Part shown: positions 24,912 through 61,390 of the stretch, piece after piece
Numbering within the stretch: position 1 is the first letter of the stretch
Layout: every line of letters begins with the position of its first letter
Origin: Cymodocea nodosa
Taxonomy: Eukaryota > Streptophyta > Magnoliopsida > Alismatales > Cymodoceaceae
Reading direction: 5' to 3'
Assembly: GCA_036874045.1 (NCBI GenBank)
Contig: CM072341.1
Location: 1,810,501-1,874,500 of the forward strand
DNA length: 64,000 nucleotides
The notes under the pieces: model-generated
Databases searched by the model: none
Told to the model about the DNA's origin: nothing
Seen by the model: the letters and a program-made list of their open reading frames with translations, nothing else
Position numbers and translations under genes: made by a program

Positions 24912-25639
24912 TGTTTAGAATGAAAAAGTGCATATTATTAACGGTTAAATAATGGTTAATTGCATAATATTTAGCTTATCATATGAGAATTAAGCCATTA
25001 TGTTATAATTGCACTATTATATGCTTTAATTGAAGAATCTGCTTAATTTTAGGGAATTAATGTTAATTTAGTACATTTATGATTTGTCGGTAAGTTGCAG
25101 GCTGTGAAATTCTTAAGTATCCAAATTTTCTGATATTTCAGATAGTTATGTTTAAATTGCCAAACAGTTATGTTTAGAGAGAATATTTTATTATTTCTAG
25201 ATGTACACGTGTTGAAACCAGAATGAATGTCTTAAGTGAATTTTCGGTGAGTTAGCTGTAACTATCCGAAAATGCATCTGAGCATCAGATAGTTAGACCT
25301 GTAACTCTCCGAAATGTTATTTTTAAACTGCTGCTGACACGTGTCGAGAGCTGGTAGATTTACTTAAGTTATAACTCGTTAAGTTAGCATAACTGTACGC
25401 GTTGAGTTACATGAATATATACTAAGGTAACATGTTAGGTTAGCGGCTTATTTCTTTATTGCATGTATTTTATAGTTATTTTCTAAAATGCCACTGTAGT
25501 GGTTGCAAGAACAGACAATTGGAAGGAAAAACCACGTTTGCACGTATCACGCAGGAATTCAATCGTGCAGGGAGAAAGAAATCATCGCCGTTGATCTGAA
25601 GGAAGGAAATCCAACCGATCATTCAAGCAGAAGCAGTTA

Positions 25640-25927
25640 CTACTGAAGAAATATAAAAGAAAAGAAGAAAAAAAGAAGAAAGTGTGATCGATGGATGACC
25701 AGTGTATACAGAGGAGGAGCACCGAGCTTTTTGCAGACAGTATCGGCGATTCTCCAAAGTATCACACCAACCATCGTATCACCACCATAATCACCAATCA
25801 TCGAAGGTCTGTGAGGGTACTTGCCTGATGTCGGGTCGATTCCGAGCCAAACACAATGCCTGACAACCACTGTGAGGAGTGATCGCGTCACGGGAAGGGA
25901 AACCATTTTCACCAAGCGTCGACTCAT
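25640..25927 (-). CDS. Antisense LTR ORF, element A 5' copy (frameshifted)
   Basis: 95 codons beginning 'MSRRLVKM'. The first 50 residues agree with the other copies; after that the frame differs because of a 1-bp change. See the copy at 33625. Confidence 0.25.
   Translation of the reverse strand: MSRRLVKMVSLPVTRSLLTVVVRHCVWLGIDPTSGKYPHRPSMIGDYGGDTMVGVILWRIADTVCKKLGAPPLYTLVIHRSHFLLFFFFSFIFLQ
25652..25658 (+). promoter_or_regulatory. LTR TATA box
   Basis: TATAAAA stands in the same place in each LTR that covers this region: 33654, 42262, 45981, and 59715-59721 on the minus strand for element D. The conserved setting 'tactgaagaaatataaaagaaaag' suits a core promoter for the genomic transcript. 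Confidence 0.5.
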
Positions 25928-26483
25928 ATTTCAGGAGATCATAAAGCTTTTAGCCTTGGCTTCGGGTTGATGCCTGTATGTTGAAGAGGAGATCATCTTG
26001 CAATTCTGGACTCACGATTCTATAGGGAGAGGAGACAGAATTGTAAGTGGTTTAATTTTCAGTGGTGTAATCACGTTGCAAGTAGTGTCGGAAGTATTTA
26101 CTGTCAAGTGAGATTACTTTACATTTCACCTTTCGCCCATTTCCATGTTCACATCAAAACAAAAATACCAAAAACAATTTATCTTTGTTTGTATGTTGTA
26201 TTTGAGTGTTGTATCGTGATTAATGTTATCTGTATTAGTTTTATGATTGTTTTATGTTAGTTTTAATTTTACAGTTTACTGAAATTGGTTTGTACAAAAA
26301 ATTTAAAGATTTTAATGGTGACTGTTTGAATCATCTGAATGTTAGTATTGCTTAATGATAAATCCAATGTTAACTAACATTAAAAAGCTTAATTGATATT
26401 ATTTACAATCTGTGGAATTGCCCAATGGTTGGTCGAATTCCTCTGTAAACAGCAGTATTATAAAGAAGAGACAGACTTGTGGA

Positions 26484-26605
26484 GTTAACTTAAGTTCACG
26501 AGGATAGTCCGTTGAGTTAGCCATAACTCAACGAACTTAGTCCGTTGAATTAACTATAACTCAACGAACTTAATCCGTTCAGTTAACTGTTGTAACTCAA
26601 CGGAG
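26484..26605 (+). repeat. Inverted GTTGAGTTA/TAACTCAAC cluster near the LTR end
   Basis: CCGTTGAGTTAGCCATAACTCAACG and two further near-copies follow one another at a spacing of about 40 bp. Each is a stem of 9-10 bp with a loop of 4-6 bases. Matching clusters in the other LTRs vary in copy number: two units at 34525, two at 43108, one at 46850, and on the minus strand near 58840-58890. Confidence 0.7.
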
Positions 26606-26879
26606 TGCTTATTGAATATAAATTTGAATTGTTCACAATCAAACATTTCTTAAATTCGTTAGCAATTCCCTGTGGGATCGACCTGTACTTGCACACTAAT
26701 ACAATAGACATTGTGCACTTGTAGTTAAAGTACAAATTGGAATTAATATCTAAATTGTATTAAAGGTTGTTTGTTTACTTCTAAAAGAAAGAATAGGCAT
26801 AAAGATAAATTAAGTAAAAATAGAAGTAACAAATCCAAGTTTTTCTAGTGTAGTGTTGGGAAAACCCAAACAAGTTTTA

Positions 26880-26897
26880 TGACGTCGCTGCCGGGGA
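26880..26897 (+). promoter_or_regulatory. Element A primer-binding site (tRNA-Asp type)
   Basis: TGACGTCGCTGCCGGGGA begins 7 bp after the LTR end and matches the tRNA-Asp 3' complement at 15 of 18 bases. Two of the three changes are G-to-A or C-to-T next to CpG positions, as methylation decay produces. Confidence 0.75.
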
Positions 26898-28532: not shown

Positions 28533-28616
28533 AGGAGTACTGAAAAATTTTCTGAACTGAACTATAACGAAATTCTTTGGGGTGTAGCTAACCTTTCTTT
28601 AAAAGAGAACGTAGAG

Positions 28617-29804
28617 ATGGCTACTCTAGTAGAAAAACCATTAGGAGAGATTCTGTATCCTGAATTAATTGATGAACCTTCATGTATTCGATTGCCAAAC
28701 TTTGAGGGAGATAGGTTTGAACTGAAATCTAATTATATTAGTCAATTGCCACATTTTCATGGATTAGAAAGAGAGGATGCCTATTATTTCCTTAGAGAAT
28801 TTAACGAAGTTTGTCAAATGATGAGAATGCCGAACATGAGTATAGATGCTATTAAACTTAGATATATCCCTTTTGCTTTAAAAGATACAGCTAAGAGATG
28901 GTTATATACTCTGTTGCTTGATTCAATTTCTACATGGACTGAATTTTGCTCTGTTTTTCTGGAAAAATACTATCCAACACATCAAACGATTAAAAAGAAG
29001 AAAGAAATATTAATGTGTAGCCAAAAACAGGGTGAATCATTCTAGAAATATTTTGAAAGATTTAAAGATTTACTGACTCAATGTCCACATCATGCAATGA
29101 GTAAAGTACAATTAATAGGCATAATTTATGAAGGCATAGATGTTTCAACGAAATCTTTATTAGAATCTACTTGTCAAAATGGATTTTTAAAATTATGTAG
29201 TGAAGAAGCATGGGCATATTTAGAAAATTTTGCAAAAAGAACTGCACAATGGGAAAATTCGGCTGAAGCTATTGCAGATAAAAAATTATTGCCAAGAGGA
29301 ATGCATGAAATAGATTCCAATACTATGCTTGAGGTGAAATTAAATGAATTAACAAAGAAAATAGAAGAGTTATCATTAAATCAAAAGCTAGTAGAAAAGA
29401 ATACAAACATAAATGACTTAAATATTATTTATGCTAGAAACCAGAGAGATAACTTGGGAAATTCTTATAATCCTAATTGGAGAAATCACCTGAATTTATC
29501 TTGGAGAAACAACAATTTCCAGGGAGGAGAAAATATAAATGAGAAGAATATAAGTTATGAAGTATTAATTGAACAAGGAGCTAGAATAGAGAAATTAGAA
29601 AAGATAATCCAACAAGTAAACAATCGTCTAGAATTTATATTTGGAAATGCTGCAAATCAAAATTAGAATAGAAATATATCACTTAGACAGAAGGAACCAA
29701 TGGAAGTTAGACCTACTAGAGGATTGCCAATACAAGCTATACCTAATCCTGTCAATAGAACGGTTAATGAAATTGATACCTCTTCTGGGAGGGCAATTGA
29801 ATGA
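28617..29804 (+). pseudogene. Capsid gag of element A (two stops)
   Basis: Gag would form the virus-like particle shell in the cytoplasm. ATG 28617 starts 'MATLVEKPLGEILYPE' and the frame runs to TGA 29802, 395 codons. The retrotransposon gag core spans residues 25-190 ('RLPNFEGDRFELKSNYISQL', 'AYYFLREFNEVCQMM', 'IKLRYIPFALKDTAKRWLY'), typical of Athila/Tat gag. Residues 225-345 include a predicted coiled coil ('KLNELTKKIEELSLNQKL') and a 'YNPNWRNHLNLSWRNN' motif that usually follows a zinc knuckle. The knuckle itself is absent here and instead sits in the type 1 elements. In-frame TAG codons occur at 29043 and 29664; element C has TGG and CAG there, so both arose by single transitions. Confidence 0.85.
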
Positions 29805-29829
29805 AGCAGCATATTTGAAGCAACTATCT

Positions 29830-29983
29830 GTATGTATATATGTTTTATTTTAAGTTAATAGTATCGTAGAGTTAATTTTTAACTCAACGAACTTAGTCCG
29901 TTGAGTTATGCCTTAACTCCACGAGGGTGTGCAGTAGTTATGTTAATTTTTGTCTCTGCTAAATTTTTATTTGTGTTTTACAG
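29830..29983 (+). other. Predicted intron before the F-box gene
   Basis: The donor is CTATCT/GTATGTATAT and the acceptor is TTTGTGTTTTACAG/AATCG, 9 bp before the F-box ATG at 29993. Both are conserved in element C (50829-50983). The intron holds one more GTTGAGTTA/TAACTCAAC hairpin (29869-29925). Splicing could give a subgenomic F-box mRNA, as plant retroelements use for third ORFs. Confidence 0.5.
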
Positions 29984-29992
29984 AATCGACAA

Positions 29993-31132
29993 ATGGAATT
30001 GATGCAATTACCAATGGATGCACTAAGGGAAATACTAAGTAACTTGTTAGCTAAAGATCTGTGCAGGCTGTGTTGTGTATCAAAGGAAATTAAAGACTGT
30101 ATTGAAGAAAAATATTTTCAAGGACTACAAGCTGCAAAAATGACTAAGATTAGAGATAGATTCATATCGAGGTCATTTAATTGTAGTTCAAATACCCATG
30201 AATATCTGGCTATGGAAGAAACTACTGGAATTCCACCCAATGCATTAGAAGGAATGAGTCATATTATGGGGATAGATGAAGGATTAATCATATACAAGAC
30301 TAGACCAATGTATGCAAGTTCATCATTACCTAATATTTTGATAAGAAATCCTATAATAGGAGAAGAATGGAATATAGGAAGACCTAATATATTTGAAGCA
30401 CCAATTGAAAATTGTGGGTCAACTTTAATATTTTCTGATAAAAATTCTGTAATTCCTAAAAAATTATATTATTGGAGACCTACAGGAAATTGGGGTGAAG
30501 ATTTACGCTTAAGTGTGTATAATTTTCTGAACAAATCTTGGAATGAAAACATTATAATATATCTAGGACAGAAATCATTAATTAACCAAACACATGTCAT
30601 ACTTGATGGATATATCTATTTAGTCACGGAGATATCATTAGCATATGGGTCTGATTTATACATAGTGAGCATAGATAGTTATGATGATTATATAGAAATT
30701 TTACCTGTACCGAGTGAAATAGCTAAACCACCATCTATAGAATTTAATGAAATTCAAATAGGAATGTGGTATAATGAAGAAGATGATCCTACTTTATGTC
30801 TGATAAGATGGTGGGATGAACTGATGAAATTTCAAATATGGATTATGGAAGACATGAATGAATGGAAGTGGGAAGAGGAGTATATTGAAATAGATGTAGA
30901 AATAGAAACTACTACATTACCTTGGAACCAAAAAGGATCTCTTTCTGCATTACATATCATTAATGGTAATACACTCGTATTTGGAATTTATAATATATTG
31001 CATGTTTACAAATTAAAAAGGAACAAGAACTGCATTAAAATAGAATTAATAGCAAGAAGAACTATGCCTAAAAAGTTTGGTTGGACTGATACATTTATTC
31101 CATTTGTTTCTACTTTTCAATCATGTTCTTAA
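29993..31132 (+). CDS. F-box protein carried by retroelement A
   Basis: An open frame of 379 codons from ATG 29993 to TAA 31130. Residues 4-45 form an F-box ('LPMDALREILSNL', 'DLCRLCCVSKEIKD'), the segment that binds SKP1 in SCF ubiquitin ligases. The remainder resembles the F-box-associated substrate-recognition region of plant F-box proteins: 'ILIRNPIIGEEWNIGRP' (about residue 115), 'SVYNFLNKSWNE' (about 175), 'VILDGYIYLVTE' (about 200), 'DPTLCLIRWW' and 'FQIWIMEDMNEWKWEEEY' (about 265-290). Membership of F-box plus FBA/kelch-like type is solid for the N-terminus and likely for the rest. It lies inside the element between gag and the polypurine tract, where pol or an env-like gene would be. 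No stops, unlike the neighbouring gag. Acquisition from a host gene is inference. Confidence 0.85.
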   Translation: MELMQLPMDALREILSNLLAKDLCRLCCVSKEIKDCIEEKYFQGLQAAKMTKIRDRFISRSFNCSSNTHEYLAMEETTGIPPNALEGMSHIMGIDEGLIIYKTRPMYASSSLPNILIRNPIIGEEWNIGRPNIFEAPIENCGSTLIFSDKNSVIPKKLYYWRPTGNWGEDLRLSVYNFLNKSWNENIIIYLGQKSLINQTHVILDGYIYLVTEISLAYGSDLYIVSIDSYDDYIEILPVPSEIAKPPSIEFNEIQIGMWYNEEDDPTLCLIRWWDELMKFQIWIMEDMNEWKWEEEYIEIDVEIETTTLPWNQKGSLSALHIINGNTLVFGIYNILHVYKLKRNKNCIKIELIARRTMPKKFGWTDTFIPFVSTFQSCS

Positions 31133-32895: not shown

Positions 32896-32913
32896 ATTTA
32901 GGTATGGGGGAAG
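32896..32913 (+). promoter_or_regulatory. Element A polypurine tract
   Basis: 'TTTAGGTATGGGGGAAG' sits directly before the 3' LTR start TGTTTAG at 32914. Confidence 0.7.
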
Positions 32914-34857
32914 TGTTTAGAATGAAAAAGTGCATATTATTAACGATTAAATAATGGTTAATTGCTTAATATTTAGCTTATCATATGAGAATTAAGCCAT
33001 TATGTTATAATTGGATTGTTATATGCTTTAATTGAAGAATCTGCTTAATTTTAGGGAATTAATGTTAATTTAGTACATTTATGAACTGTCGGTAAGTTGC
33101 AGGCTGTGAAATTCTTGAGTATCCGAATTTTCTGATATTTTAGATAGTTATGTTTAAATTGCCAAACAGTTATGTTTAGAGAGAATATTTTATTATTTCC
33201 AGATGTACACGTGTCGAAATCAGAATGAATTTCTTAAGTGAATTTTTGGTGAGTTAGTTGTAACTATCTGAAAATGCATTTGAGCATCGGATAGTTAGAC
33301 CTGTAACTCTCAGAAATGTTATTTTTAAACTGCTGCTGACACGTGCCGATAGCTGGTAGATTTACTTAAGTTATAACTCGTTAAGTTAGCATAACTGTAC
33401 GCGTTGAGTTACATGAATATATACTAAGGTAACGCGTTAGGTTAGCGGCTTATTTCTTTATTGCATGTATTTTATAGTTATTTTCTAAAATGCCACTGTA
33501 GTGGTTGTAGGAACGGACAGTTAGAAGGAAAAACCACGTTTGCACGTATCACATAGGAATTCAATCGCGCAAGGAGAAAGAAATCATCGCCGTTAATCTG
33601 AAGGAAGGAAATCCAACTGATCATTCAAGCAGAAGCAGTTACTACTGAAGAAATATAAAAGAAAAGAAGAAAAAAAGAAGAAAGTGTGATCGATGGACGG
33701 CTAGTGTATACAGAGGAGGAGCACCGAGCTTTCTGCAGACAGTATCGGCGATTCTCTGAAGTATCACACCAACCATCGTTATCACCACCATAATCACCAA
33801 TCATCGGAGGTCTGTGAGGATACTTGCCTGATGTCGGGTCGATTCCGAGCCAAACACAGTGCCTAACAACCACTGTGAGGAGTGATCGCGTCGCGGGAAG
33901 GGAAGACATTTTCACCAAGCGTCGACTCATATTTTAGGAGATCGTAAAGCTTTTAGCCTTGGCTTCAGGTTGATGCCTGTATGTTGAAGAGGAGATCATC
34001 TTCCAATTCTGGACTTGCGATTCTATAGGGAGAGGAGACAAAATTGTAAGTGGTTTAATTTTCAATGGTGTAATCATGTTGCAAGTAGTGTCGGAAGTAT
34101 TTACTGTCAAGTGAGATTACTTTACATTTCACCTTTCACCCATTTCCATGTTCACATCAAAACAAAAATACCAAAAACAATTTATCTTTGTTTGTATGTT
34201 GTATTTGAGTGTTGTATTGTTTGTGTTGTATCGTGATTAATGTTATCTATATTAGTTTTATGATTGTTTTATGTTAGTTTTAATTTTACAGTTTACTGAA
34301 ATTGGTTCGTACAAAAAACTTAAAGATTTTAATTGTGACTGTTTGAATGATCTGAATGTTAGTATTGCTTAATGATAAATCCAATGTTAACTAGCATTAA
34401 AAAGCTTAATTGATGTTATTTACAATCTATGGAATCGCCCAATGGTTGACCGAATTTCTTTGTAAACAGTAGTATTATAAAGAAGAGACAGGCTTGTGGA
34501 GTTAACTTAAGTTCACGAGGATAGTCCGTTGAGTTAGCCATAACTCAACGAACTTAGTCCGTTGAGTTAATTGTAACTCAACGGAGTGCTTATTGAATAT
34601 AAATTTGAATTGTTCACAATCAAACATTTCTTAAATTCGTTAGCAATTCCCTATGGGATCGACCTGTACTTGCACACTGATACAATAGACACTGTGCACT
34701 TGTAGTTAAAGTACAAATTGAAATTAATATCTAAATTGTATTAAAGGTTGTTTGTTTACTTATAAAAGAAAGAATAGGCATAAAGATAAATTAACTAAGT
34801 AAAAATAGAAGTAACAAATCCATGTTTTTCTAGTGTAGTGCTGGGAAAACCCAAACA
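32914..34857 (+). repeat. Element A 3' LTR
   Basis: 1944 bp, same structure as the 5' LTR and ending CCCAAACA at 34857, followed by target duplication ACTCT. In the first 260 bp about ten positions differ from the 5' LTR, so the insertion is not recent. Confidence 0.88.
33625..33930 (-). CDS. Conserved antisense ORF in the LTR
   Basis: 101 codons, read against the element. The sequence begins 'MSRRLVKMSSLPATRSLL', continues with 'GIDPTSGKYPHRPPM' and ends in a hydrophobic stretch ('FFLLFFYISSVV') that could be a membrane segment or an artefact of the AAGAAAAAAAG tract. The same frame opens at the same LTR position in 45952-46257 (101 codons) and, shorter or shifted, at 25640, 42250 and 59462. 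The segment is more GC-rich than the rest of the LTR, as if captured from a gene. No family recognised and no direct evidence of expression. Confidence 0.4.
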   Translation of the reverse strand: MSRRLVKMSSLPATRSLLTVVVRHCVWLGIDPTSGKYPHRPPMIGDYGGDNDGWCDTSENRRYCLQKARCSSSVYTSRPSITLSSFFLLFFYISSVVTASA

Positions 34858-41265: not shown

Positions 41266-43442
41266 TGTTTAGAATGAAAAAGTGCATATTATTAACGGTT
41301 AAATGATGGTTAATTGCATAATATTTAGCTTATCATATGAGAATTAAGCCATTATGTTATAATTGCACTATTATATGCTTTAATTGAAGAATCTGCTTAA
41401 TTTTGGGGAATTAATGTTAATTTAGTACATTTATGAACTGTCGGTAAGTTGCAGGCTGTGAAATTCTTAAGTATCCGAATTTTCTGATATTTCGGACAGT
41501 TATGTTTAACATACCGAACAAATTCAGACAGTTATGTTTAACAGACCGAATATGTATCGGATAGTTATGTTTAAATTGTTGAACAGTTATTCTTTGAGAG
41601 AATATTTTATTATTTCCTGAAGTACGTGTGTCGAAACCAGAATGAATGACTTAAGTGAACTTTCGGTGAGTTATCTATAACTATCCGAAATTACAACTGA
41701 GCATTCGATAGTTATCCTTGTAACTCTCCGAAATCTATTTTTATTTATAAAATAGCTGAGGACACGTGTCATGTTCTGGGTAAGTGACTTAAGTGAATTT
41801 TAAGTGAGTTAGCTGTAACTATCCGAAATGCATCAGAGCATCGAATAGTTAGACCTGTAACTCTCTGAAATGTTATTTTATAATTAAATTGCTGTTGACA
41901 TGTGTTGAGATCTGGTAGATTTACTTAAGTTATATATCGGTGAGTTAATTGTAACTATCCGAAATGCATCTGAGTATCGAATAGTTAAGTTTATAAGTAT
42001 CCAAAATGCACCTGAGCATCGGATAGTTAAATTTATGCACGTGTTTTATAGTTAAATCAACGAAGAAAGTCCGTTGAGTTATCTGTAACTCCACGGACTA
42101 TATATTTTCTAATATGCCACTGTAGCGGTTGCAGAAACAGGATAGTTGGAAGGGAAAAACCACATTTGCACGTATCGCGCAGGAGAAGGAAGCATCGCCG
42201 TTGATCTGAATGAAGGAAATCCAACCGATCATTCAAGCAGAAGCAGTTACTACTGAAGAAATATAAAAGAAAAGAAGAAAAAAAGAAGATGGTGTGATCG
42301 ATGGACGAACAGTGTGTGCAAAGGAGGATCAGCGTTGCAATTCTCTGAAGTACCACACCAACCACTATCACCACCATCATCACCACCATAATCAACAACC
42401 ATCGGAGGTCTGTGAGGATACTTGCTTGATGTTGGTTCGATTTCGAGCCAAACACAGTGCTTGACAACCACTGTGAGGAGTGATTGCGTCACGGGAAGGG
42501 AAGCCATTTTCACCAAGCGCCGACTCATATTTCAGTAGATTGTAAAGCTTTTAGCCTTAGCTTCGGGTTGATGCCTGTATGCTGAAGAGGAGATCATCTT
42601 GCAATTCTGGACTCGCGATTCTATAAGGAGAGGAGACAAAATTGTAAGTGGTTTAATTTTTAGTATTGTAATCGCGTTGCAAGTAGTGTCGGAAGTATTT
42701 ACTGTCAAGTGAGATTACTTCATATTTCACCTTTCGCCCATTTCCATGTTCACATCAAAACAAAAATACCAAAAACAATTTATCTTTGTTTGTATGTTGT
42801 ATTTGAGTGTTGTATCGTGACTAATGTTATCTATATCAGTTTTATGATTGTTTGATGTTAGTTTTAATTTTACAGTTTACTGAAATTGGTTTGTACAAAA
42901 GACTTAAAGATTTTAATGGTTACTGTTTGAATCATCTGAATGTTAGCATTGCTTAATGATAAATCCAATGTTAACTAGCATTAAAAAGCTTAATTGATGT
43001 TATTTACAATCTGTGGAATCGCCCAATGGTTGTCCGAATTCCTCTGTAAATAGCAATATTATAAAGAAGAGACAGGCTCGTGGAGTTAACTTAAGTCCAC
43101 AAGGATAGTCCGTTGAGTTATGGCTATAACTCAACGAACTTTGTCCATTGAGTTAATTGTAATTCAACGGAGTGCTTATTGAATATAATTTTGAATTGTT
43201 AACAATCAAACAGTTCTTAAATTTGTCAGCAATTCCCTGTGGATCGACCTGTACTTGCACACTGATACAATAGACACTATGCACTTGCAGTTAAAGTACA
43301 AATTGGAATTAATATCTAAATTGTATTAAAGGTTGTTTGTTTACTTATAAAAGAAAGAATAGGCATAAAGATAAATTAACTAAGTAAAAATAAAAGTAAC
43401 AGATCCAAGTTTTTCTAGTGTAGTGCTAGGAAAACACAAATA
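41266..43442 (+). repeat. Element B 5' LTR
   Basis: 2177 bp, longer than the A LTRs because of extra units of the TATCCGAAATGCATCTGAGCATC type (41500-42035). It lacks the AACTCGTTAAGTTAG module and instead carries 'AGTCCGTTGAGTTATCTGTA' at about 42068. Its last bases read CACAAATA rather than CCCAAACA. Confidence 0.82.
42250..42528 (-). CDS. Antisense LTR ORF, element B copy
   Basis: 92 codons beginning 'MSRRLVKMASLPVTQ'. It agrees with the 33625 copy over the first 50 residues, then contains a triplet-type expansion (GGTGGT/ATCACCACC) and a frame change. Confidence 0.3.
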   Translation of the reverse strand: MSRRLVKMASLPVTQSLLTVVVKHCVWLEIEPTSSKYPHRPPMVVDYGGDDGGDSGWCGTSENCNADPPLHTLFVHRSHHLLFFFFSFIFLQ

Positions 43443-43561: not shown

Positions 43562-45397
43562 ATGACGTATGCTTATGCTCAAAGATTTTTGAAACCTGCA
43601 ATTAGCATATGTGAATTCTGCAATTCTGAAGGACACGACATTTCTGATTGTTTGAAATTGAGACGTCTACAGATTGTTAGATCCCATGAACAACAAATGA
43701 ATTATCCTCAATATAATAGAGTCGAGTATGAGAATCCTATAGTTTACCCAACTAATGGTCAGTATAGAATGTGTAATATGATGAGAGACACTGAAGTTTG
43801 GGATAGCTATGACAGACTGGAGCATAGTATAGAGCTAAATCTAGACAAATTGGAAAACTTTATGTGTTAACAATAAGAAATCAACCAGTTAAACTATAAG
43901 GAATCATATTCAGAACCTAAACAGGATATAATTTACGAAACTAAAAAAGCCATAAAGAAAATTGATCAAAAATTGAATGCAATGAAATTAAATGATCTGG
44001 AAACAAAATTAAAAGCATTAGACAAAAATGCAATGAAAATACAAGTTATGCAACAGGACAATGAAAATTGTAATGTTATAAACCTGCATAATTTGCAAAA
44101 TATACAACAAACAGAAAACACTAATGCAAGAGAATTTAAATAATGCACTTTAAAATTAAAAACAATTGAAGATCATAATCACGAAAATGATATGCAAAAA
44201 CATCATGAAAGTAACGAAAATCTAGAAGATGTATGTGTAACATTAAGATCTAGAACTGATATACCACCAAGAACTCAAAATGAAAATGAAATGAAGGTGG
44301 ACAAGAGTAAAAATCAAAATGATAATGAAAATGTAATAGCTGAAAATCTAAAAATCACTGAACAATAATCTGAATTTGCAATTGAAGCTAAAAATGACCA
44401 AATAAATCAACTGAAAGAAAAAGAGTCTTTGAAATCAAAATCTTTAGCACCCTATCCTGAAAGATTACAACAAACAATTCCTGAAAGACAAGAGAAAATC
44501 AGAGAAATTTTTGAAAAAGTACAAGTTAACATTCCTTTGTTAGATCTATTGCAGAATATGCCACCTTGTGCTAAATTTCTGAAGGATTGGTGTACTAAGA
44601 AAAGAGAGCGAAAAGTTCTTAGAAAGGTCTTTTTAGCTGAGCAAAGTAGTTCCCTATTTCTACCACAAATTCCTAAAAAGTTATTTGATCTTGGAATCCT
44701 TGTTATATTATGCACCATAGTAAATACCATTCTAGAAAGAACCTTAATAGACTTAGGTGCAGGTATAAATGTTATGCCAAGTGATATATTTGCATCCTTA
44801 GGATTAGAAGGCTTAACTCCTACTAGTACGGTTATTCAATTAGCTGATAGAAGTATAAGATACCCTAGAGGAAAAATAGAGGATGTCTTAATTAAAATCA
44901 AGAATTTTATATATCCTATTGATATTGTAATTTTGGATTCCCAACAAATTAAACATAAAAATAGTGATACATCTTTAATTTTGGGAAGGCCATTTTTAGC
45001 AACATCAGGGGCTGTTATAAATTGTAAAACTGGAGTAATGAAGTTAGCATATGGTAATGAGGATATTCAATTAAATATTTTCAAACCAGAAAGGTTTGAG
45101 GAGTTAGAAATGTCCTTACATACCATAGACTTTTTAGAGGATGAAGGAGATATGTTAGATGATGTGATTCAAGAAGAATTAAATAGGCAAATCAATTCTG
45201 AAACTTTAGAAGAAAGTGAAAGCATAAATATAGAAGGAGATCGGGAAGAAATTAATTTAAAAAATGATGATGTTCAATTAGGAGCTCTAGTTTCTGATGG
45301 GTAGCATTTAGAATTAAAACCTTTACCTCCTGAATTAACCTATATATTTCTAGAAGATAATCGAACCTGTCCAATCATTATTGCTTCAGATTTAGCT
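43562..45397 (+). pseudogene. Type 1 knuckle-protease ORF of element B
   Basis: One frame from ATG 43562 ('MTYAYAQRFLKP') to the truncation point. Residues 20-33 are an intact CCHC zinc knuckle, CEFCNSEGHDISDC (C-x2-C-x4-H-x4-C), which binds RNA in retroelement Gag. A charged, coiled-coil-prone linker (about residues 110-290) follows. The retropepsin domain comes next, with 'LIDLGAGINVMPSDIF' (catalytic Asp in DLGAG), 'YPRGKIEDVLIKI' and 'SLILGRPFLATSGA', as in Athila-type proteases. About five in-frame stops (43868, 43874, about 44142, about 44366, 45302), mostly CAA/CAG/GAA turned to TAA/TAG, inactivate it; there is no frameshift. The frame starts about 95 bp after the primer site, so no capsid domain lies upstream. 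Confidence 0.8.
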
Positions 45398-47151
45398 TGT
45401 TAGAATGAAAAAGTGCATATTATTAACGGTTAAATGATGGTTAATTGCATAATATTTAGCTTATCATATGAGAATTAAGCCATTATGTTATAATTGCACT
45501 ATTATATGCTTTAATTGAAGAATCTACTTAATTTTGGGGAATTAATGTTAATTTAGTACATTTATGAACTGTCGGTAAGTTGTAGGCTGTGAAATTCTTA
45601 AGTATCCAAAAATGCATCTAAGCATCGGATAGTTAGACCTGTAACTCTTCGAAATCTCTTTTTATGATTAAACTGCTGTTGACACATGTCGAGATCTAAT
45701 AGATTTACTTAAGTTATAACTCGTTAAGTTAGCATCACTGTACGCGTTGAGTTACATGAATATACACTAAGGTAACGCATTAAGTTAGCGGCTTATTTCT
45801 TTATTGCATGTATTTTATAGTTATTTTCCAAAATGCCACTGTAGTAGTTGTAGGAACAGATAGTTGGAAGGAAAAACCACGTTTGCATGTATCATGCAGG
45901 GAGAAAGAAATCATCGCCGTTGATCTGAAGGAAGGAAATCCAACCGACCATTCAAGCAGAAGCAGTTACTACTAAAGAAATATAAAAGAAAAGAAGAAAA
46001 AAAGAAGTGTGTGTGATCGATGGATGGCTAGTGTATACAGAGGAGGAGCACCGAGCTTTCTGCAGACAGTATCGGTGATTCTCCGAAGTATCACACCAAC
46101 CATCGTTATCACCACCATAATCACCAATCATCGGAGGTCTGTGAGGATACTTGCCTGATGTCGGGTCGATTCCGAGCCAAACACAGTGCCTGACAACCAC
46201 TGTGAGGAGTGATCGCGTCGCGAGAAGGGAAGACATTTTCACCAAGCGCCGACTCATATTTCAAGAGATCGTAAAGCTTTTAGCCTTGGCTTCAGGTTGA
46301 TGCCTGTATGCTGAAGAGGAGATCATCTTCTAATTCTGGACTCGCGATTCTATAGGGAGAGGAGACAGAATTGTAAGTGGTTTAATTTTCAGTGGTGTAA
46401 TCGCGTTGCAAGTAGTGTCGGAAGTATTTACTGTCAAGTGAGATTACTTTACATTTCACCTTTTGCCCATTTCCATGTTCACATCAAAACAAAAATACCA
46501 AAAACAATTTATCTTTGTTTGTATGTTGTATTTGAGTGTTGTATTGTTTGTGTTGTATCGTGATTAATGTTATCTGTATTAATTTTATGATTATTTTATG
46601 TTAGTTTTAATTTTACAGTTTACTGAAATTGGTTCGTACAAAAAACTTAAAGATTTTAATGGTTACTGTTTGAATCATCTGAATGTTAGTATTGCTTAAT
46701 GATAAATCCAATATTAACTAGCATTAAAAAGCTTAATTGATGTTATTTACAATCTGTGGAATTGCCTAATGGTTGGCCGAATTCCTCTATAAATAGCAGT
46801 ATTATAAAGAAGAGACAGGGTCGTGGAGTTAACTTAAGTCCACGAGGATAGTCCGTTGAGTTAACTGTAACTCAACGGAGTGCTTATTGAATATAAATTT
46901 GAATTGTTCACAATCAAACATTTCTTAAATTCGTCAGTAATTCCTTGTGGGATTGACCTGTACTTGCACACTGATACAATAGACACTGTGCACTTGCAGT
47001 TAAAGTACAAATTAGAATTAATATCTAAATTGTATTAAAGGTTGTTTGTTTACTTCTAAAAGAAAGAATAGGCATAAAGATAAATTAACTAAGTAAAAAC
47101 AAAAGTAACAAATCCAAGTTTTTCTAGTGTAGTGTTGGGAAAACCCAAACA
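45398..47151 (+). repeat. LTR between B and C (assigned as C 5' LTR)
   Basis: 1754 bp from TGTTAGAATG to CCCAAACA. It is of the A type (has the AACTCGTTAAGTTAG module) with a deletion of about 180 bp near 45605 between two 'tatccaaa' copies. To the left it abuts the protease frame of B; to the right it abuts the charged ORF of C without primer site or leader. It could be the 5' LTR of C after a deletion, a 3' LTR of a shortened B, or a recombinant of both. Its two flanks (TAGCT, GGAAC) do not form a target duplication. Confidence 0.7.
45952..46257 (-). CDS. Antisense LTR ORF, copy in the 45398 LTR
   Basis: 101 codons, open from end to end. It differs from the 33625 copy at only a few residues, such as 'SLLATRS' for 'SLPATRS'. 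Retention of full length in two LTRs of different age is the main reason to list it. Confidence 0.38.
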   Translation of the reverse strand: MSRRLVKMSSLLATRSLLTVVVRHCVWLGIDPTSGKYPHRPPMIGDYGGDNDGWCDTSENHRYCLQKARCSSSVYTSHPSITHTSFFLLFFYISLVVTASA

Positions 47152-48520
47152 GGAACCAATTGCTGAAAGACCTGTTCCTGAGGAGCAGCAGCCTGGACCT
47201 TTAGTTCCATCATTTAAACCGTTGGCACGAGTAGAAATGATGGAGCCTTCGACTGAAGAAGAAATAAGAGAATTTGCAGAATTGGTTCAAGTAGGGAAGA
47301 ACCAAGGAGAATCAGAAGATTTGGTAGTGGCTAAAGCACACGTGGTGTTTGATGCACTGTATAAAAAGAGGGCTGCAGAAAAGTTGAAAGCCCAATATAA
47401 AATTAAAGTGGAAGAAGAAGAAAGAGTGGAAAATGAAGAATCTGAAAGAAGCCATTTGGACAAAAATAATTTCACAGATTTCACTGAAGAGTAAGAAACT
47501 CTTTAGCAAATTATGGAAAGAATTCAAGACAGAGTGGAGAGTTCTGTCGGCTCACCACCATAGATAGAAGCAAAAGCAAAAATTCAGGAATCTGAAGAGA
47601 ATGTTCAAATGCAGCCTATGCTAGAGGAAGATCAAGTACAAACCCCTCTAGAGCAACAAAGTCACCTTCCTAACCCGACTGAAACAACAATTTTGAATGA
47701 AGTACACTTTAGTAGTCAGTAAGCTTATACTAAATATCAAGAAATAAAGGGTTACGATATTATTTATAGTAGACCAGTAAATTGTGATGGAATGTAAGAA
47801 ATCAAAGATCTATTTGAATTCCAAGGTCTACTGCAATTTATATCTCAAGAAAGAGGGCATGCAGTATATGAGAATTTAGTGCTTTGTTTCTATGCAAATC
47901 TGAGAGAAAGAGAAGGAGGATTAATTTCAAACGTGGAGGAAGCTGATGTATAGATAACACCAGAGCTTCTCCACAACATATTTGGTTAAAAGAATGAAGG
48001 AACAAAAATTTTGGAAGATACAACTACAGTTGAATGGATTGAACACCAAATTAAGGATTGTTTAGCTATCAATCCTAGTGTGCCATTATTAAACAGATTG
48101 AAGCATTTGAATGGTAAAGCACACATGGTAGCTAACATTCTGATTAAGAATGTCTATCAACGATAGGGCCATGACATAGAATTAAGTCAATTTGTCAAAT
48201 GGGCCACATATGCAGTTGTAAATAAGATCCAAATAAATTGGTCTGCAATTTTTATCTCCAAGTTGAAAACAGTGAAGAAGAAATTATTTTATGGAGATTT
48301 GATTCCACTGCTGATGGTGGACTGTATCGATTTCATTAAATGGACATCAAAAAGGATCAGATCTAGAACCATTTCAGTGAAAGAATACAGGAATTTTGTA
48401 GCTACAGAATTAGCTGTACCTTCTAGAGGAATTTCGAGAGCAGTAGAAATGATAAATCAATTAGAGCAGCAATTAGAAAAACTCTAGAAGGAAGTAGATG
48501 AACTTAGGCATAGAGATTAA
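47152..48520 (+). pseudogene. Charged N-terminal ORF of element C (plant-transposon-protein-like)
   Basis: One frame of about 455 codons without its start, interrupted by roughly eight stops. The first 240 residues are Glu/Lys/Gln-rich and low-complexity ('KIKVEEEERVENEE'). The second half has a more ordered look: 'FEFQGLLQFISQERGHAVYE', 'CFYANLRE.EG', 'SVPLLNRLKHLNGKAHMVAN' and 'KKLFYGDLIPLLMV', ending in a coiled-coil-like 'MINQLEQQLEKL'. This resembles the 'putative plant transposon protein' ORF found with Athila-type retroelements. I place it there from memory of the pattern, with moderate certainty. Element E holds a second copy; element A keeps only the end. Confidence 0.55.
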
Positions 48521-49615: not shown

Positions 49616-50803
49616 ATGGCTGCTCTAGTAGAAAAACCATTACGAGAAATTCTGTATCCTGAATTAATTGATGAACCTTCATGTATTCGATTGCCAAACT
49701 TTGAGGGAGATAGGTTTGAACAGAAATCTAATTACATTAGTCAATTGCCACATTTTCATGGATTAGAAAGAGAGGATGCCTATTATTTTCTTAGAGAATT
49801 TAACGAAGTTTGTCAAATGATGAAAATGCCGAACATGAGTATAGATGCTATTAAACTTAGATATATCTCTTTTTCTTTAAAAGATACAGTTAAGAGATGG
49901 TTATATACTCTATCGCCTGATTCAATTTCTGCATGGATTGAATTTTGCTCTGTTTTTTTGGAAAAATATTATCCAACACATCAAACTATTAAAAAGAAGA
50001 AAGAAATATTAATGTGTAGCCAAGAACAAGGTGAATCATTTTGGAAATATTTTGAAAGATTTAAAGATTTACTGACTCAATGTCTACATCATGCAATGAG
50101 TAAAGCACAATTAATAGGTATAATTTATGAAGGCATAGATGTTTCAATGAAATCTTTATTAGAATCTACTTGTCAAAATGGATTTTTAAAATTATGTAAT
50201 GAAGAAGCATGGGCATATTTAGAAAATTTTGCAAAAAGAACTACATAGTGGGAAAATTCGGTTGAAGCTCTTGCAGATAAAAGAATATTGCCAAGAGGAA
50301 TGCATGAAATAGATTCCAATACTATGCTTGAGGTGAAATTAAATGAATTAACAAAGAAAATAGAAGAGTTATCATTAAATCAAAAGCTAGCAGAAAAGAA
50401 TACAAACATAAATGACTTAGATATTATTTATGCTAGAAACCAGAGAGATAACTTGGGAAATTCTTATTATCCTAATTGGAGAAATCACCTGAATTTATCT
50501 TGGAGAAACAACAATTTCCAGGGAGGAGAAAATATAAATGAGAAGAACATAAGTTATGAAGTATTAATTGAATAAGGAGCTAGAATAGAGAAATTAGAAA
50601 AGATAATCCAACAAGTAAACAATCGTCTAGAATTTATATTTGGAAATGGTGCAATTCAAAATCAGAATAGAAATATATCACTTAGACAGAAGGAACCAAT
50701 GGAAGTTAGACCTATTGGAGGATTGCCAATACAAGCTATACCTAATCCTGTCAATAGAACGGTTAATGAAATTGATACCTCTTCTAGGAGGGCAGTTAAA
50801 TGA
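49616..50803 (+). pseudogene. Capsid gag of element C (two stops)
   Basis: The same 395-codon frame as in element A, starting 'MAALVEKPLREILYPE'. In-frame TAG at about 50246 and TAA at about 50573, at positions different from the stops in A, so the common ancestor had an intact gag. Like A it lacks the CCHC knuckle. The upstream intron sites (GTATGT not fully kept, TTCATTACAG/AGG at about 49532) are largely preserved. Confidence 0.85.
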
Positions 50804-50992: not shown

Positions 50993-52132
50993 ATGGAATT
51001 GATGCAATTACCATTGGATGCACTAAGAGAAGTACTAAGTAACTTGTCAGCTAAAGATCTGTGCAGGCTGTGTTGTGTATCAAAGGAAATTAAAGACTGT
51101 ATTGAAGAAAAATATTTTCAGGGACTACAAGCTACAAAAATGACTAAGATTAGAGATGGATTCATATGGAGGTCATTTAATCGTAGTTCAAATACCCATG
51201 AATATCTGGCTATGGAAGAAACTACTGGAATTCCACCCAATGCATTAGAAGGAATAAATTATATTATGGGGATAGATGAAGGATTAATCATATACAAGAT
51301 GAGACCAAGGTATGCAAGTTTAATATTACTTGATATTTTGATACGAAATCCTATAGCAGGAGAAGAATGGAATATAGGAAGACCTAATATATTTGAAGCA
51401 CCAACTGAAAATTGTGGGTCAGCTTTAATATTTTCTGATAAAAATTCTGCAATTCCTGAAAAATTATATTATTAGAGACGTACAGGAAATTGGGGTGAAG
51501 ATTTACGCTTAAGTGTGTATAATTCTCTAAACAGATCTTGGAATGAAAACATTATAATATATCTAGGACAGAAATCATTAATTAACCAAACACATGTCAT
51601 ATTTGATGGATATATCTATTTAGTCACGGAGATATCATTAGCATATGGATCTGATTTATACATAGTGAGCATAGACAGTTATGATGATTATATAGAAATT
51701 TTACCTGTACCGAGTGAAATAGCTAAACCACCATCTACAGAATTTAATGAAATTCAAATAGGAATGTGGTATAATGAAGAAGATGATCCTACTTTATGTA
51801 TGATAAGATGGTGGGATGAACTAATGAAATTTCAAATATGGATTATGGAAGACATCAATGAATGGAAGTGGGAAGAGGAGTATATTGAAATAGATGTAGA
51901 AATGGAAACTGTTACATTACCTTGGAACCAAAAAGGATCCCTTTCTGCATTACATATCATTAATGGTAATACACTCGTATTTGGAATTTATAATATATTA
52001 CATGTTTACAAATTAAAAAGGAACAAGAACTGCATTAAAACTGAATTAATAGCAAGAAGAACTATGCCTAAAAAGTTTGCTTGGACTGATACATTTATTC
52101 CATTTGTTTTGACTTTTCAATCATGTTCTTAA
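50993..52132 (+). pseudogene. F-box gene of element C (one stop)
   Basis: Collinear with the F-box ORF of element A over all 379 codons without a length change. It has a single nonsense codon at about 51473 (Trp to stop in 'LYYWRPTGNW'). About 33 residues differ from A, scattered through the protein and including the middle of the substrate region (A 'MYASSSLPNI' versus C 'RYASLILLDI'). The F-box segment keeps 'LPLDALREVLSNL' and 'DLCRLCCVSKEI'. The preceding acceptor TTTTACAG/AATCG (50983) is intact. Confidence 0.82.
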
Positions 52133-53872: not shown

Positions 53873-53890
53873 ATTTAGGTATGTGGGAAG
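53873..53890 (+). promoter_or_regulatory. Element C polypurine tract
   Basis: 'TTTAGGTATGTGGGAAG' before TGTTTAG at 53891. It differs from the element A tract by one G-to-T change that breaks the G run. Confidence 0.65.
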
Positions 53891-54382
53891 TGTTTAGAAT
53901 GAAAAAGTGCATATTATTAACGGTTAAATGATGGTTAATTGCATAATATTTAGCTTATCATATGAGAATTAAGCCATTATGTTATAATTGCACTGTTATA
54001 TGCTTTAATTGAAGAAGCTGCTTAATTTTGGGGAATTAATGTTAATTTAGTACATTTATGAACTGTCGGTAAGTTGCAGGCTGTGAAATTCTTAAGTATC
54101 CAAATTTTCTAATATTTTGGATAGTTATGTTTAACATACCGAACAAATTCGGACAGTTATGTTTAACAGACCAAATATGTATCAGATAGTTATGTTTAAA
54201 TTGCCGACAGTTCAAAAATGTACTAAATTAACATTAATTCCCCGAAATTAAGCAGATTCTTTAATTAAAGCATATAACAATGCAATTATAACATAATGGC
54301 TTAATTCTCATATGATAAGCTAAATATTATGCAATTAACCATCATTTAACCGTTAATATTATGCACTTTTTCATTCTAAACA
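53891..54382. repeat. Head-to-head inverted LTR ends joining C and D
   Basis: 53891-54069 (plus, start of the C 3' LTR) and 54204-54382 (start of the D 3' LTR, minus) are inverted copies of about 179 bp that differ at only a few positions. A 134-bp spacer of LTR sequence lies between them. Both LTRs are truncated and meet at about 54205 within 'ccgacagtt', which both arms share, so the join looks like a microhomology-mediated inversion breakpoint. A transcript across it would fold into a long hairpin. Confidence 0.8.
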
Positions 54383-55060
54383 CTAAGCTTGTCTTATAAG
54401 TAATTCTATAAGCCCAAAGTGCATCTATCAATCTATTAGCCCAATCTGTTCTAGTAGGATTTACTACTTTTTCTAAGATTAACTTAATTTGTTTGTTTGC
54501 ACTTTCTACTTGTCCACTTGTTTGCGGATGATATGATGTTGCAATTTTGTGGTTTACTCCATATTTCTTCATTAAGGCTTCAAAACTTCTATTACAGAAA
54601 TGAGTTCCTCTATCACTGATAATAGCTTTAGGTATTTCAAATCTGGCAAATATATTGGTTCTTATAAATTGTATTACCACTTTGTTGTCATTAGTTTTTG
54701 TAGGAATAACTTCTATCCATTTAGATACATAATCCACCCCCAACAATATGTAATTAAATTGATTAGACATAGGAAATGAACCTATAAAATCTATTCCCCA
54801 CACATCAAAGATTTCAACCTCAACAATAGGATTAAGAGGCATCATATTCCTCTTTGATATTCTTCCTATTTGTTGACATCTTAAACAACTTAAGCAATAT
54901 TTATGAGCATCTTTGAATAGTGTTGGCCAATAAAATCCACATTGCAGAATTTTTGCAGTAGTTTTCCCTGAGCTAAAATGCCCTCCACAAGCTTGGTCAA
55001 AATAGAAAGACAATATGCTCGGATATTCAATTTCTAGAACACACCTCCTTAAAACCAGAT
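54383..55060 (-). pseudogene. Integrase, element D, C-terminally truncated
   Basis: This would insert the DNA copy into chromosomes. The N-terminal zinc region 'GGHFSSGKTTAKILQCGFYW' ends with 'CLSCLRCQQ'. The core keeps all three catalytic acidic residues: Asp in 'VWGIDFIGSFP', Asp in 'AIISDRGTHF' and Glu in 'GQVESANKQIK'. It continues to 'DALWAYRITYKTSL' and then enters the 3' LTR at 54382, so the C-terminal DNA-binding region is missing. Its own open frame runs 55013-54342. Confidence 0.87.
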
Positions 55061-55071
55061 CAAGACATTTC

Positions 55072-55619
55072 TTAAATAAGTATGGGTCTTCCCAATAAAT
55101 ATTTTACTATTGAGAAAATTTTTTTTTTATCCTGTCTATTCCAATCTTTAGGTGTTAAACTAGTAACTAAGTAATTAACTATGTCTGCATACCAAGGTAT
55201 TGTGTTGATGGTCATTAATTGTTCATTAGAAAAATTATCCTTAATTTCAATATTTGATTTTTCTATTTGTAATCTTGATAAATGATTTGCTACTACATTC
55301 TCACAACCTTTTTTATCTTTAATTTCTAGATCAAATTCTTGTAATAATAATATCCATCGGATCAATCTAGGCTTAGTCTCTTTTTTTGCTATTAGGTGTT
55401 TTAAAATTGAATGATCCGTGTATACTATTACCTTAGCTACAATCAGATATGATCTAAACTTTTCCAAGGTAAACACAATAGCTAATAGTTCTTTCTAAGT
55501 AGTTGTGTAATTAACTTGAGCATCATTTAAGGTTTTGCTTGCATAATGAATCACTCTAGGAGATTTTTCTATCTTCTGTCCCAACACTACTCCTACAGCA
55601 AAATCAGATGCATCACACA
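55072..55619 (-). pseudogene. RNase H, element D
   Basis: Begins with a CDASDFAVGVVLGQ-type block at about 55615 and 'IHYASKTLNDAQVNY'. One stop (about 55497) interrupts '[16 protein letters not shown]'. Then come '[11 protein letters not shown]', '[15 protein letters not shown]' and '[10 protein letters not shown]', the end of the gypsy RNase H. Confidence 0.85.
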
Positions 55620-56399
55620 TTAATTCAAATAAATTTTTAATAGATTAGTTAAAGGTTTAGCTATTTTGCTAAAGACTTTAATAAATCTTCTATAAAAACC
55701 AACATGTCCTAGAAATGATCTAATATCTTTTACTGATTTAGGTTCTAGTAGATTAGAAATTACTTCTATTTTAGCTTTATCTACTTCCAACCCTTTCTTA
55801 GAAACAACATGCCCTAAGACTATTCCTTGTTTAACCATGAAGTGACATTTTTCCCAATTTAAAACCAGATTTTTTTCCACACAGCGTTTTAATATTTGGT
55901 CTAAATTTTTTAAACAAACTTCATATGAATTGTCATATACAGTAAAATCATCCATAAATATTTCTAAGAAATCTTCAATCATTCCAGTAAATATGCCCTG
56001 CATACACCTTTGAAAGGTAGTTGATGCATTGCATAATCCAAATGACATTCTCTTAAAAGCATAAGTTCCATTAGGACATATGAAAGTTTTTTTCTCTTGA
56101 TCCTCCAATGCTACTGGAATTTGATTATAACCTGAATACCCGTCTAGGAAACAAAAATATTCTTGCCCTGCTAATCTTTCCAACATTTGATCTATAAAAG
56201 GGAAGGGAAAATGATCTTTCCTAGTCGTAGCATTCAGCTTTCTATAGTCTATACATACTCTCCAGCCTGATTGAATTATAGTAGGTATCAAGTCTTGACT
56301 TTCATTCCTAATAACTGTTAATCCTGATTTCTTAGGAACTACATGTATTGGGCTAACTCACGAGCTATCAAAAATAGGATAAATTATGTTATTATCTAA
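55620..56399 (-). pseudogene. Reverse transcriptase, element D
   Basis: This would copy element RNA into DNA. Gypsy RT blocks in order: 'WRVCIDYRKLNATTRKDHFP', 'FIDQMLERLAG', 'YFCFLDGYSGYNQIPV', 'TFICPNGTYAFKRMSFGLCN', the catalytic 'FLEIFMDDFTVY' (FMDD, both aspartates present), 'HFMVKQGIVLGH' and 'IRSFLGHVGFYRRFI'. Stops lie before 56291. The connection segment between RT and RNase H is deleted: 'KPLTNLL' runs almost directly into the first RNase H block. Confidence 0.88.
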
Positions 56400-57464
56400 C
56401 TATTTCACTATTTCCTTCTTGACTACTTCTTTAAGGTTTGGATTTAATCTCATCTCAGGAATTCTAACAAGTTTAGCATTCTCTTCTAAATATATGTAGT
56501 GACAGCATAAAGTTGAACTTAACCCTTTTATATCAGTCATAGTCAATCCTATTGCTTCTTTATAACTTTTTACTATATCTTTTAATTTAGCTATTTGGTC
56601 CTCTTTTAAATCTGAAGCAATAATGATTGGACAGGTTTGTTTCTCTTCCAGAAATATATAGGTTAATTCAGGAGGTAAATGTTTTAATTCTAAATGTTGC
56701 CCATCAGAAGCTAGAGCTCCTAATTGAACATCATCATTTTCTAAATTAATTTCTTCCAGATCTCCTTCTATATTTATGCTTTCACTTTCTTCTAAAGTTT
56801 CAGAATTGATTTGCCTATTTAATACTTCTTGAATCACATCCTCTAACATATCTCCTTCATCCTCTAAAAGGTCTATGGTATGTAAGGACATTTCTAACTC
56901 CTCAAACCTTTCTGATTTGAAAATATTTAATTAAGTATCCTCATGACCATATGCAAACTTCATTACTCTAGTTTTACAATTTATAACAGCCTCTGATGTT
57001 GCTATAAATGGCCTTCCCAAAATTAAAGATGTATCACTATTTTTATGCTTAATTTGTTGGGAATCCAAAATTATGATATCAATAGGATATATAAAGTTTT
57101 TGATTTTAATTAAGACATCCTCTATTTTTCCTCTAGGGTATCTTATACTTCTATCAGCTAATTGAATAACCGTACTAGTAGGAGTTAAGCCTTCTAATCC
57201 TAAGGATGCAAATATATCACTTGGCATAACATTTATACCTGCATTTAAGTCTATTAAGGTTCTTTCTAGAATGGTATTTCCTATGGTGCATGATATAACA
57301 GGTATTCCAGGATTAGATATCTTTTTAGGAATTTGTGGAAGAAATAGGGAACTACTTTGCTCAACTAAAAAGACATTTCTAAGAACCTTTCGCTCTCTTT
57401 TTTTAGTACACCAATTCTTTAGACATCTAGCACAAGGTGGCATTTTTTGCAATAGATCTAACAA
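56400..57464 (-). pseudogene. Protease and spacer, element D
   Basis: Retropepsin domain with 'TLIDLNAGINVMPSDIF' (catalytic Asp kept, Gly to Asn after it) and 'SLILGRPFIATSEA'. This is followed by a break near 56930 and an acidic spacer ('DEGDMLEDVIQEVLNRQ'). The spacer leads into the segment before RT ('LPPELTYIFLEE', 'CPIIIASDLKEDQIAKL', 'IPEMRLNPNLKEVVKKEI'), the lead-in to the polymerase of Athila/Tat elements. Confidence 0.8.
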
Positions 57465-58531: not shown

Positions 58532-58573
58532 GAAAACTTATTTGGATCTCTAGCACGGCACCAGAAAACTTAA

Positions 58574-60679: not shown

Positions 60680-61390
60680 CATAGTACTTGAATCTATTTC
60701 ATGCATTCCCCTTGGCAATATTCTTTTATCTGTAATAGCTTTAGTCGAGTTTTCCCATTGAGTAGTTCTTTTTGCAAAGTTTTCTAAGTATGCTCATGCT
60801 TCTTCACTACATAGTTTTAAAAATCCATTCTCACAAGTAGATTCTAATAAAGATTTAGTTGAAACATCTATGCCTTCATAAATTATATCTATTAATTGTG
60901 TTTTACTCATTGCATGATGTGGACATTGAGTCAGTAAATCTTTAAATCGTTCAAAATATTTCCAAAATGATTCTCCCTATTTTTGGCTACACATTAATAT
61001 TTCCTTTTTCTTTTTAATTGTTTGATATGTTGGATAATATTTTTCCAGAAAAATAGATCAAAATTCAATCCAAGTAGAAATTGAATCAAGCGATAGAGTA
61101 TATAACCATTTCTTAACTATGTCTTTTAAAGCAAAAGGAATATATCTAAGTTTAATAGCATCAATACTCATGTTTGGCATTTTCATCATTTGACAAACTT
61201 CATTAAATTCTCTAAGGAAATAATAGGCATCTTTTCTTTCTAATCCATGAAAGTATGGCAATTGACTAATATAATTAGATTTTAATTCAAACATATCTCC
61301 CTCAAAGTTTGGCAATTGAATACATGAAGGTTCATTAACTAATTCTAGATACAAAATTCCCTCTAATGGTTTTTCTACTAGAGTAGTCAT
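60680..61390 (-). pseudogene. Capsid gag of element E, truncated by element D
   Basis: Starts 'MTTLVEKPLEGILYLE' at 61390 and follows the A and C gag to residue 237 ('LPRGMHEIDSSTM'), where the D LTR begins. Stops include TGA at about 61055 (Cys to stop after 'TWIEF') and further ones near 60980 and 60790. Confidence 0.82.

Follow-up and report, generated by a model that had tools for sequence, protein, structure and literature searches.

An apparently full-length gene for a plant-type F-box protein is almost certainly carried by an LTR retrotransposon in the 64-kb stretch of DNA that we analysed (hereafter the window; 31% G+C). We propose that a non-autonomous, capsid-carrying element of the Ty3/gypsy type bears this gene as an accessory gene for an F-box protein with an F-box-associated domain (F-box/FBA) between gag and the polypurine tract (PPT), and that the gene would have been copied by retrotransposition using the enzymes of pol-carrying relatives with the same LTR family. 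Carriage by the element, such a cross-mobilisation and some period of constraint on the gene, taken jointly, form a reading that we somewhat favour.

An F-box gene between gag and the PPT of an LTR element

Element A is an LTR retrotransposon at positions 24912-34857 with paired LTRs, a PBS-like stretch and a PPT, and comprises the following features:

24912..26872, + strand, 5' LTR of A (TGTTTAG...AAACA, pairs with 32914-34857)
26880..26897, + strand, PBS-like stretch of A in the leader sequence, 7 bases past the LTR end
28617..29804, + strand, gag (capsid) of A with two internal stops and without CxxC in frame (Pfam Retrotrans_gag, 4e-17 on the C copy)
29805..29992, + strand, gag-F-box spacer of A with two GAGTTA/TAACTC hairpins and a possible intron
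29993..31132, + strand, F-box/FBA protein ORF of A, open (ORF listing, Pfam, NCBIfam)
32901..32913, + strand, polypurine tract of A (sequence)
32914..34857, + strand, 3' LTR of A (pairs with the 5' LTR)

Both LTRs start with TGTTTAG and finish with CCCAAACA; aligned over 1925 bases with 4 gaps, the two show 95.8% identity (K 0.044). The original prediction had described the LTRs and the target duplication of A as well defined, which holds for the LTR pair; the duplication has 4 of its 5 bases equal (ATTCT/ACTCT) and lies within a degenerate repeat that forms the flank of A, 11 bases of which recur right of the element. It is clear that A has inserted, but with an imperfect target duplication. 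The PBS-like stretch is presumably of the tRNA-Asp type, and by this type and the upstream ORF described below the family may lean towards the Athila/Tat lineage of Ty3/gypsy. The window contains gag, RT and integrase in the Ty3/gypsy order, i.e. with integrase after RT, so that a plant is its most likely source. Scans of the 64 kb for tRNAs and Rfam families returned nothing.

The F-box ORF extends on the + strand from the ATG at 29993 to the stop at 31132 and is, with 379 open codons, the longest ORF of the window. Residues 4-41 match the F-box (PF00646, 2e-8, 34.2 bits vs a cut-off of 20.5; Pfam) and a second F-box model also passes its threshold (PF12937, 24.8 vs a cut-off of 24.3; Pfam), and this N-terminal domain confirms the predicted product as an F-box protein. 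Residues 171-334 resemble the F-box-associated domain TIGR01640 (NCBIfam, E 2.6e-6), but with 26.9 bits remain below the cut-off of 37.9, and the second half of the F-box ORF in copy C (see below) gives a weak match to FBA_1 (0.059; Pfam). The order of F-box and FBA supports the predicted layout of a whole plant F-box/FBA protein, with the second domain under its cut-off. The ORF, the Pfam matches and the LTR pair thus bear out the prediction of a 379-codon F-box ORF in A between gag and the PPT.

None of 1416 word-sharing candidates was a protein relative of the F-box at E 0.001, a PDB sequence search with the F-box gave none at E 1, and the AlphaFold2 model of the lone sequence was unusable (pLDDT 38.5). 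Gag matched 2 of 71 candidates, both of them short proteins from JGI contigs, and viral contigs queried with the F-box, gag and protease yielded no relative, with records from the window's own genome possibly excluded. At third codon positions, the F-box nearly matches gag, PR and RT of the element in composition, in a comparison confined to coding regions of the element family.

The two stops claimed for the gag of A were found at 29043 and 29664. Between the LTRs of A there is no RT or integrase ORF of at least 100 codons and no blastn match of the RT-integrase stretch of the pol-type element D, and tblastn located protease only in the pol-type elements B and D. With no pol found, A departs from an autonomous Ty3/gypsy element, and with the F-box as a second ORF it also departs from a TR-GAG element, which has LTRs and a single gag ORF. 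The proposed location of the F-box in the place of pol/env is supported in part, as pol was found in neither A nor C and the position is that of an env-like accessory ORF.

A collinear copy of the gene in a second element

The F-box gene recurs in copy C, which together with the LTR on its 5' side comprises:

45398..47151, + strand, further LTR of the family, joins B and C (sequence comparison)
47152..48487, + strand, ORF1 remnant (upstream ORF) of the gag-type C, partly common to the third capsid copy D' (sequence comparison)
49616..50803, + strand, gag (capsid) of C with two internal stops (Pfam; end set by the ungapped alignment to A)
50993..52132, + strand, F-box ORF of C with a stop at codon 161 (translation)
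53878..53890, + strand, polypurine tract of C (sequence)
53891..54197, + strand, truncated 3' LTR of C, end approximate (meets the inverted LTR head 54382-54198)

Positions 48471-54134 of C align to 27465-33157 of A with 94.2% identity over 5703 columns. The identity begins upstream of gag, spans the F-box, the PPT and the LTR head, and has both of its ends within element sequence. The order in C is gag-F-box-PPT-LTR, as in A, and from this collinearity we conclude that the gene moved with the element. This agrees with the predicted amplification of the F-box as part of the element, and a tblastn search of the window with the F-box protein found, apart from the copies in A and C, nothing better than E 3.4.

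The claim that the copy in C stands in exactly the same context applies to gag, the spacer, the F-box, the PPT and the LTR head, whereas the rest of C is broken. Its gag has internal stops at 50246 and 50573, in codons that differ from those in A, and only about 307 bp of its 3' LTR are left before the inverted LTR head. At the 5' end, the LTR at 45398-47151 leads directly into the upstream-ORF remnant without a PBS. C is thus not a bounded element and has no complete LTR pair.

The ORF upstream of gag, located at 47152-48487 and at 62474-63424 (minus strand), is partly common to C and D' and unmatched in the leader of A; Pfam searches with three pieces of it gave no family above cut-off.

Constrained gene or passive cargo

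The F-box could also be passive cargo, i.e. a host F-box gene that was taken up once and copied without benefit, with A and C as two daughters of one copy, which we regard as quite possible though somewhat less than probable. There are precedents for such an uptake: for rice and sorghum, host genes inside LTR elements have been reported in numbers and as a common occurrence (PMC3726574), and Thlaspi arvense has one named F-box 'LTR-gene' (PMC8764390), as given in the available parts of both papers. The dN/dS ratio of the F-box between A and C, 0.82 (0.46-1.90), is not below 1 and likewise fits passive carriage, as does the stop in the F-box of C. However, the F-box frame carries fewer substitutions than its noncoding neighbours and no indels, to the same degree as gag. 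We counted 49 substitutions at 1137 F-box positions vs 72.8 expected (Poisson 0.002; plain Fisher 0.015) and 47 at 1187 gag positions vs 76.0 expected (Poisson 0.0002; plain Fisher 0.003). The expected counts were scaled from the noncoding internal positions of A and C (178 substitutions at 2831 positions, 16 indels) and adjusted for base composition, and they are inflated by the noncoding stretch 27900-28299, in which A and C have diverged by 9%. At the noncoding rate, 6.4 indels would be expected in the F-box and 6.7 in gag, vs 0 in each; these zeros are weak evidence, because the indel rate of the LTR pair of A predicts only about 2.4 in each of the two frames. Many of the noncoding indels fall in A/T or purine runs.

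Between A and C, the dN/dS ratio of gag was 0.66 (0.35-1.61), and a neutral simulation of the F-box predicted 37.4 nonsynonymous and 11.6 synonymous changes, compared with 38 and 11 seen. The capsid, by comparison, gave 0.19 (0.11-0.31) between A and D' and 0.25 (0.15-0.40) between C and D'; all ratios exclude any codon that touches a gap or is a stop in one of the copies. Since gag, which is constrained relative to D' (0.19), is also indistinguishable from neutral between A and C, the A-C pair is too young for a dN/dS test.

The noncoding internal sequence of A and C has a K of 0.064-0.070, vs 0.044 for the LTR pair of A, and judging by this lower value part of the A-C history may precede the insertion of A. 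The LTR head common to A and C (244 bp), however, has a K of 0.047, which is barely above that of the LTR pair and leaves little pre-insertion time for selection; A and C would then have parted hardly earlier than A inserted, as passive carriage would have it, and most of their divergence may be later than the insertion, when no selection acts. The original prediction had singled out the open F-box beside the broken gag of A, but this does not exceed chance: the 49 changes, if neutral, would have produced 2.9 stops in the F-box over the A-C pair, and 1 was seen (P(<=1) = 0.19). Selection on the F-box is doubtful, and a use of the gene for the element appears quite possible, though somewhat less than probable.

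A segmental duplication, or a host F-box gene that just happens to have an LTR on either side, is highly improbable. It would suit the missing complete LTR pair of C and a 524-base stretch near A that recurs at 94.8% before the LTR of B, so that some non-element sequence is common to both neighbourhoods. This reading is largely contradicted by the structure of A, which combines two LTRs, PBS, PPT and gag with a target duplication that is nearly perfect, and by the limits of the A-C identity, which starts and stops within the element, while the 524-base repeat does not adjoin C. A chance ORF with a spurious F-box match has a negligible probability and was dropped, as 40 random sequences of 64 kb each, drawn from the dinucleotide frequencies of the window, contained no ATG ORF longer than 144 codons, vs 379 here, and as two family models match the ORF in the expected parts and order, with one of the two scoring under its cut-off.

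Capsid-less relatives with the same LTR family

The window also contains pol-type members of the family, B and D, and the third capsid copy D':

41266..43442, + strand, 5' LTR of the pol-type B (sequence comparison)
43562..45394, + strand, coding region of B, capsid-less and truncated by the LTR at 45398: ATG, CCHC zinc knuckle at 43610, linker and protease, the last preceded by four stops
58570..60679, - strand, 5' LTR of the pol-type D, inner end approximate (sequence comparison)
54383..58438, - strand, coding region of D, capsid-less and interrupted by a frameshift and several stops: zinc-knuckle region, linker, protease, RT, RNase H and integrase, the last truncated by an LTR head
60680..61390, - strand, capsid gene of the third gag-type copy D', cut by the LTR of D (sequence comparison)

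The LTRs are 90-91% alike between A and B, 84-85% between A and D, and 86.5% between B and D. The two pol-type elements have in common the succession of PBS, ATG, zinc-knuckle region, linker and protease, after which B is truncated, while D runs on to RT, RNase H and integrase and is truncated there. A tblastn search with the open gag pieces found the capsid at three places, namely in A, C and D', and none in B or D, with other matches at E 0.3 or worse. Conversely, gag of A and C contains no CxxC, and the only intact CCHC within these elements is that of B at 43610; D has the module with the last cysteine changed. In all six frames the window holds two CCHC matches, one in B and one at 9943 outside these elements.

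B and D align gap-free from the ATG of B to about 44490, where a 1-base gap breaks the frame of D, and their first 300 codons contain 4 stops in B and 3 in D, none of them at a common position. Their dS is 0.37 at the 5' end and declines steeply to 0.02 at the 3' end. From this gradient and the frame-breaking gap we conclude that B and D are decayed mosaics, which qualifies the dN/dS ratio of 0.30 (0.18-0.52) in their upstream part; in the protease, no selection is visible (0.89, 0.48-2.00). As judged from such ratios, the older comparisons show purifying selection on both the capsid and the pol elements, with the B-D figure derived from mosaic, decayed copies.

The family might even be a two-part LTR retrotransposon, with the capsid and the F-box on one RNA and the zinc-knuckle nucleocapsid, protease, RT and integrase on the other, in which LTRs and the start of the leader would be shared, neither part would be mobile alone and the F-box would be a working accessory factor that may act, for example, against silencing or in particle maturation. 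This extension is rather unlikely, and it rests on two pol-type and three capsid-type copies within the 64-kb window. Alternatively, a complete gag-pol member may be present elsewhere in the genome, as B and D are truncated downstream. If the split between capsid and pol is real, retrotransposons can exist as reciprocal two-part genomes, beyond the pairs of parasite and host in the papers cited below.

The LTR heads at 45398, 54382 and 60679 adjoin coding sequence of other members, the first downstream of the protease, the second within the integrase and the third within gag. Three such heads within about 15 kb perhaps reflect nested insertion of the family into its own kind, three times.

Putative expression signals and hairpins

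The F-box had been predicted to have its own intron signal, and candidate signals are present in the gag-F-box spacer, with GTATG at 29830 resembling a donor and a pyrimidine-rich putative acceptor to ACAG at 29983, just before the ORF. For Bagy2, a spliced message has been reported (PMC7264820, in the part available), to which such an intron would be similar. The F-box would be read off the LTR promoter, probably via a spliced or re-initiated message.

The spacer also contains a hairpin motif, CGTTGAGTTA-loop-TAACTCAACG, which occurs 24 times in the window vs 0 times in 40 random sequences if one mismatch per arm is allowed; single arms number 80, vs a chance mean of 3 and a maximum of 8. All but one of the hairpins (23/24) lie in LTRs, leaders or spacers of the element family, including just before the F-box, and the remaining one lies in a solo LTR at 39802. 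The motif is possibly a cis signal and is found at the following sites:

26510-26602, 27353-27442, 27967-28042, 29865-29923, 34527-34583, hairpin sites
39802-39824, 42072-42095, 43111-43169, 46854-46877, hairpin sites, continued
48967-49107, 50865-50923, 58842-58865, 61915-62004, hairpin sites, continued

Possible function and comparison with known systems

The F-box gene was probably captured from the host. In this it resembles the captured-gene elements of rice and sorghum, Bs1 of maize and the Thlaspi case, in which a host-type gene lies within an LTR element and is copied along (PMC3726574, PMC8764390, PMC7264820, as far as the available parts of these sources describe). Unlike these, the gene of A appears to be full length, occupies an env-like position beside gag and is present in two copies, whereas the Thlaspi case is merely named in the part available (PMC8764390), and 'F-box' is absent from the main text of PMC3726574.

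With its gag and without RT or integrase, A is similar to TR-GAG and semi-autonomous elements that are presumed to be moved by partners, such as ATCOPIA63 AT5TE33540, RLG_Sabrina and RLG_WHAM (PMC8704663, PMC9744471). According to the accessible text of these papers, Arabidopsis ddm1 showed transposition of a TR-GAG element (PMC8704663), and wheat Sabrina and WHAM supply gag-protease only, with some Sabrina variants carrying other proteins instead (PMC9744471). In contrast to the single gag ORF of TR-GAG, A keeps a gag without zinc knuckle plus the F-box gene. The counterparts of B and D are Tos17 of rice, which is without gag and yet active (PMC3977881), and BARE2 of barley (cited via PMC9744471), which keep pol and presumably use the capsid of another element, as the accessible portions of both sources indicate. 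Unlike them, B and D retain an ATG-started zinc-knuckle piece, and the window also holds their possible capsid donor, which belongs to the same LTR family.

Comparable to A, the elements Athila, Bagy2 and Tekay have an extra gene that either precedes gag or separates pol from the 3' LTR (PMC7264820, PMC11728184), but none of the accessory ORFs described there is an F-box protein, and the word 'F-box' is absent from the available parts of both papers. Among the matches listed from the open-licence PMC literature, there was neither an F-box gene in a gag-carrying LTR element nor a reciprocal division of capsid and pol among elements that share LTRs. There is precedent for captured genes, for gag-only elements and for accessory ORFs, whereas a gag element with an F-box/FBA gene at the env position is new as far as we searched.

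The protein, which we infer from its F-box to be a member of an SCF complex, would join SKP1 and cullin and remove or stabilise some host or element protein, thereby aiding the element; in this way it might steer host protein turnover, as the original prediction supposed. By analogy with F-box-like viral silencing suppressors, its target would be a protein that limits the element. Comparable to A are polerovirus P0 and other viral suppressors, in which the genetic element that infects a plant has an SKP1-binding F-box-like motif (PMC6593998, PMC6784205, in the parts available), but the suppressors have the motif only, whereas A has a whole plant-type F-box/FBA layout, as far as its sequence tells. 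P0 acts against ARGONAUTE1, and its SKP1 binding serves the stability of P0 and is not directly required for suppression, according to the available part of PMC6593998; an anti-silencing role of the F-box is for this reason an analogy only, and such a target is unlikely. If the F-box has been maintained, a plant retrotransposon would possess its own handle on the protein-destruction machinery of the host, like some plant viruses, and its target can be sought directly.

Other features of the window

A solo LTR of another kind lies at 39134-40746 (TGTTGAG...TCCTACA), with CATCA flanking both sides. It shares with the 5' LTR of A a U3 stretch of 79 bp at 82% and similar CGTTAAGTTA/CGTTGAGTT words, which reflects either a promoter module shared between LTR families or a distant kinship. 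The non-element repeat mentioned above is located at 23695-24208, 0.7 kb before A, and at 40743-41266, directly before B (94.8%, 524 columns). The CCHC-type zinc-knuckle match at 9943, outside the elements A to D, is on the + strand, and a hAT transposase remnant is present at 3668-4249 (Dimer_Tnp_hAT, 2.5e-19; Pfam).
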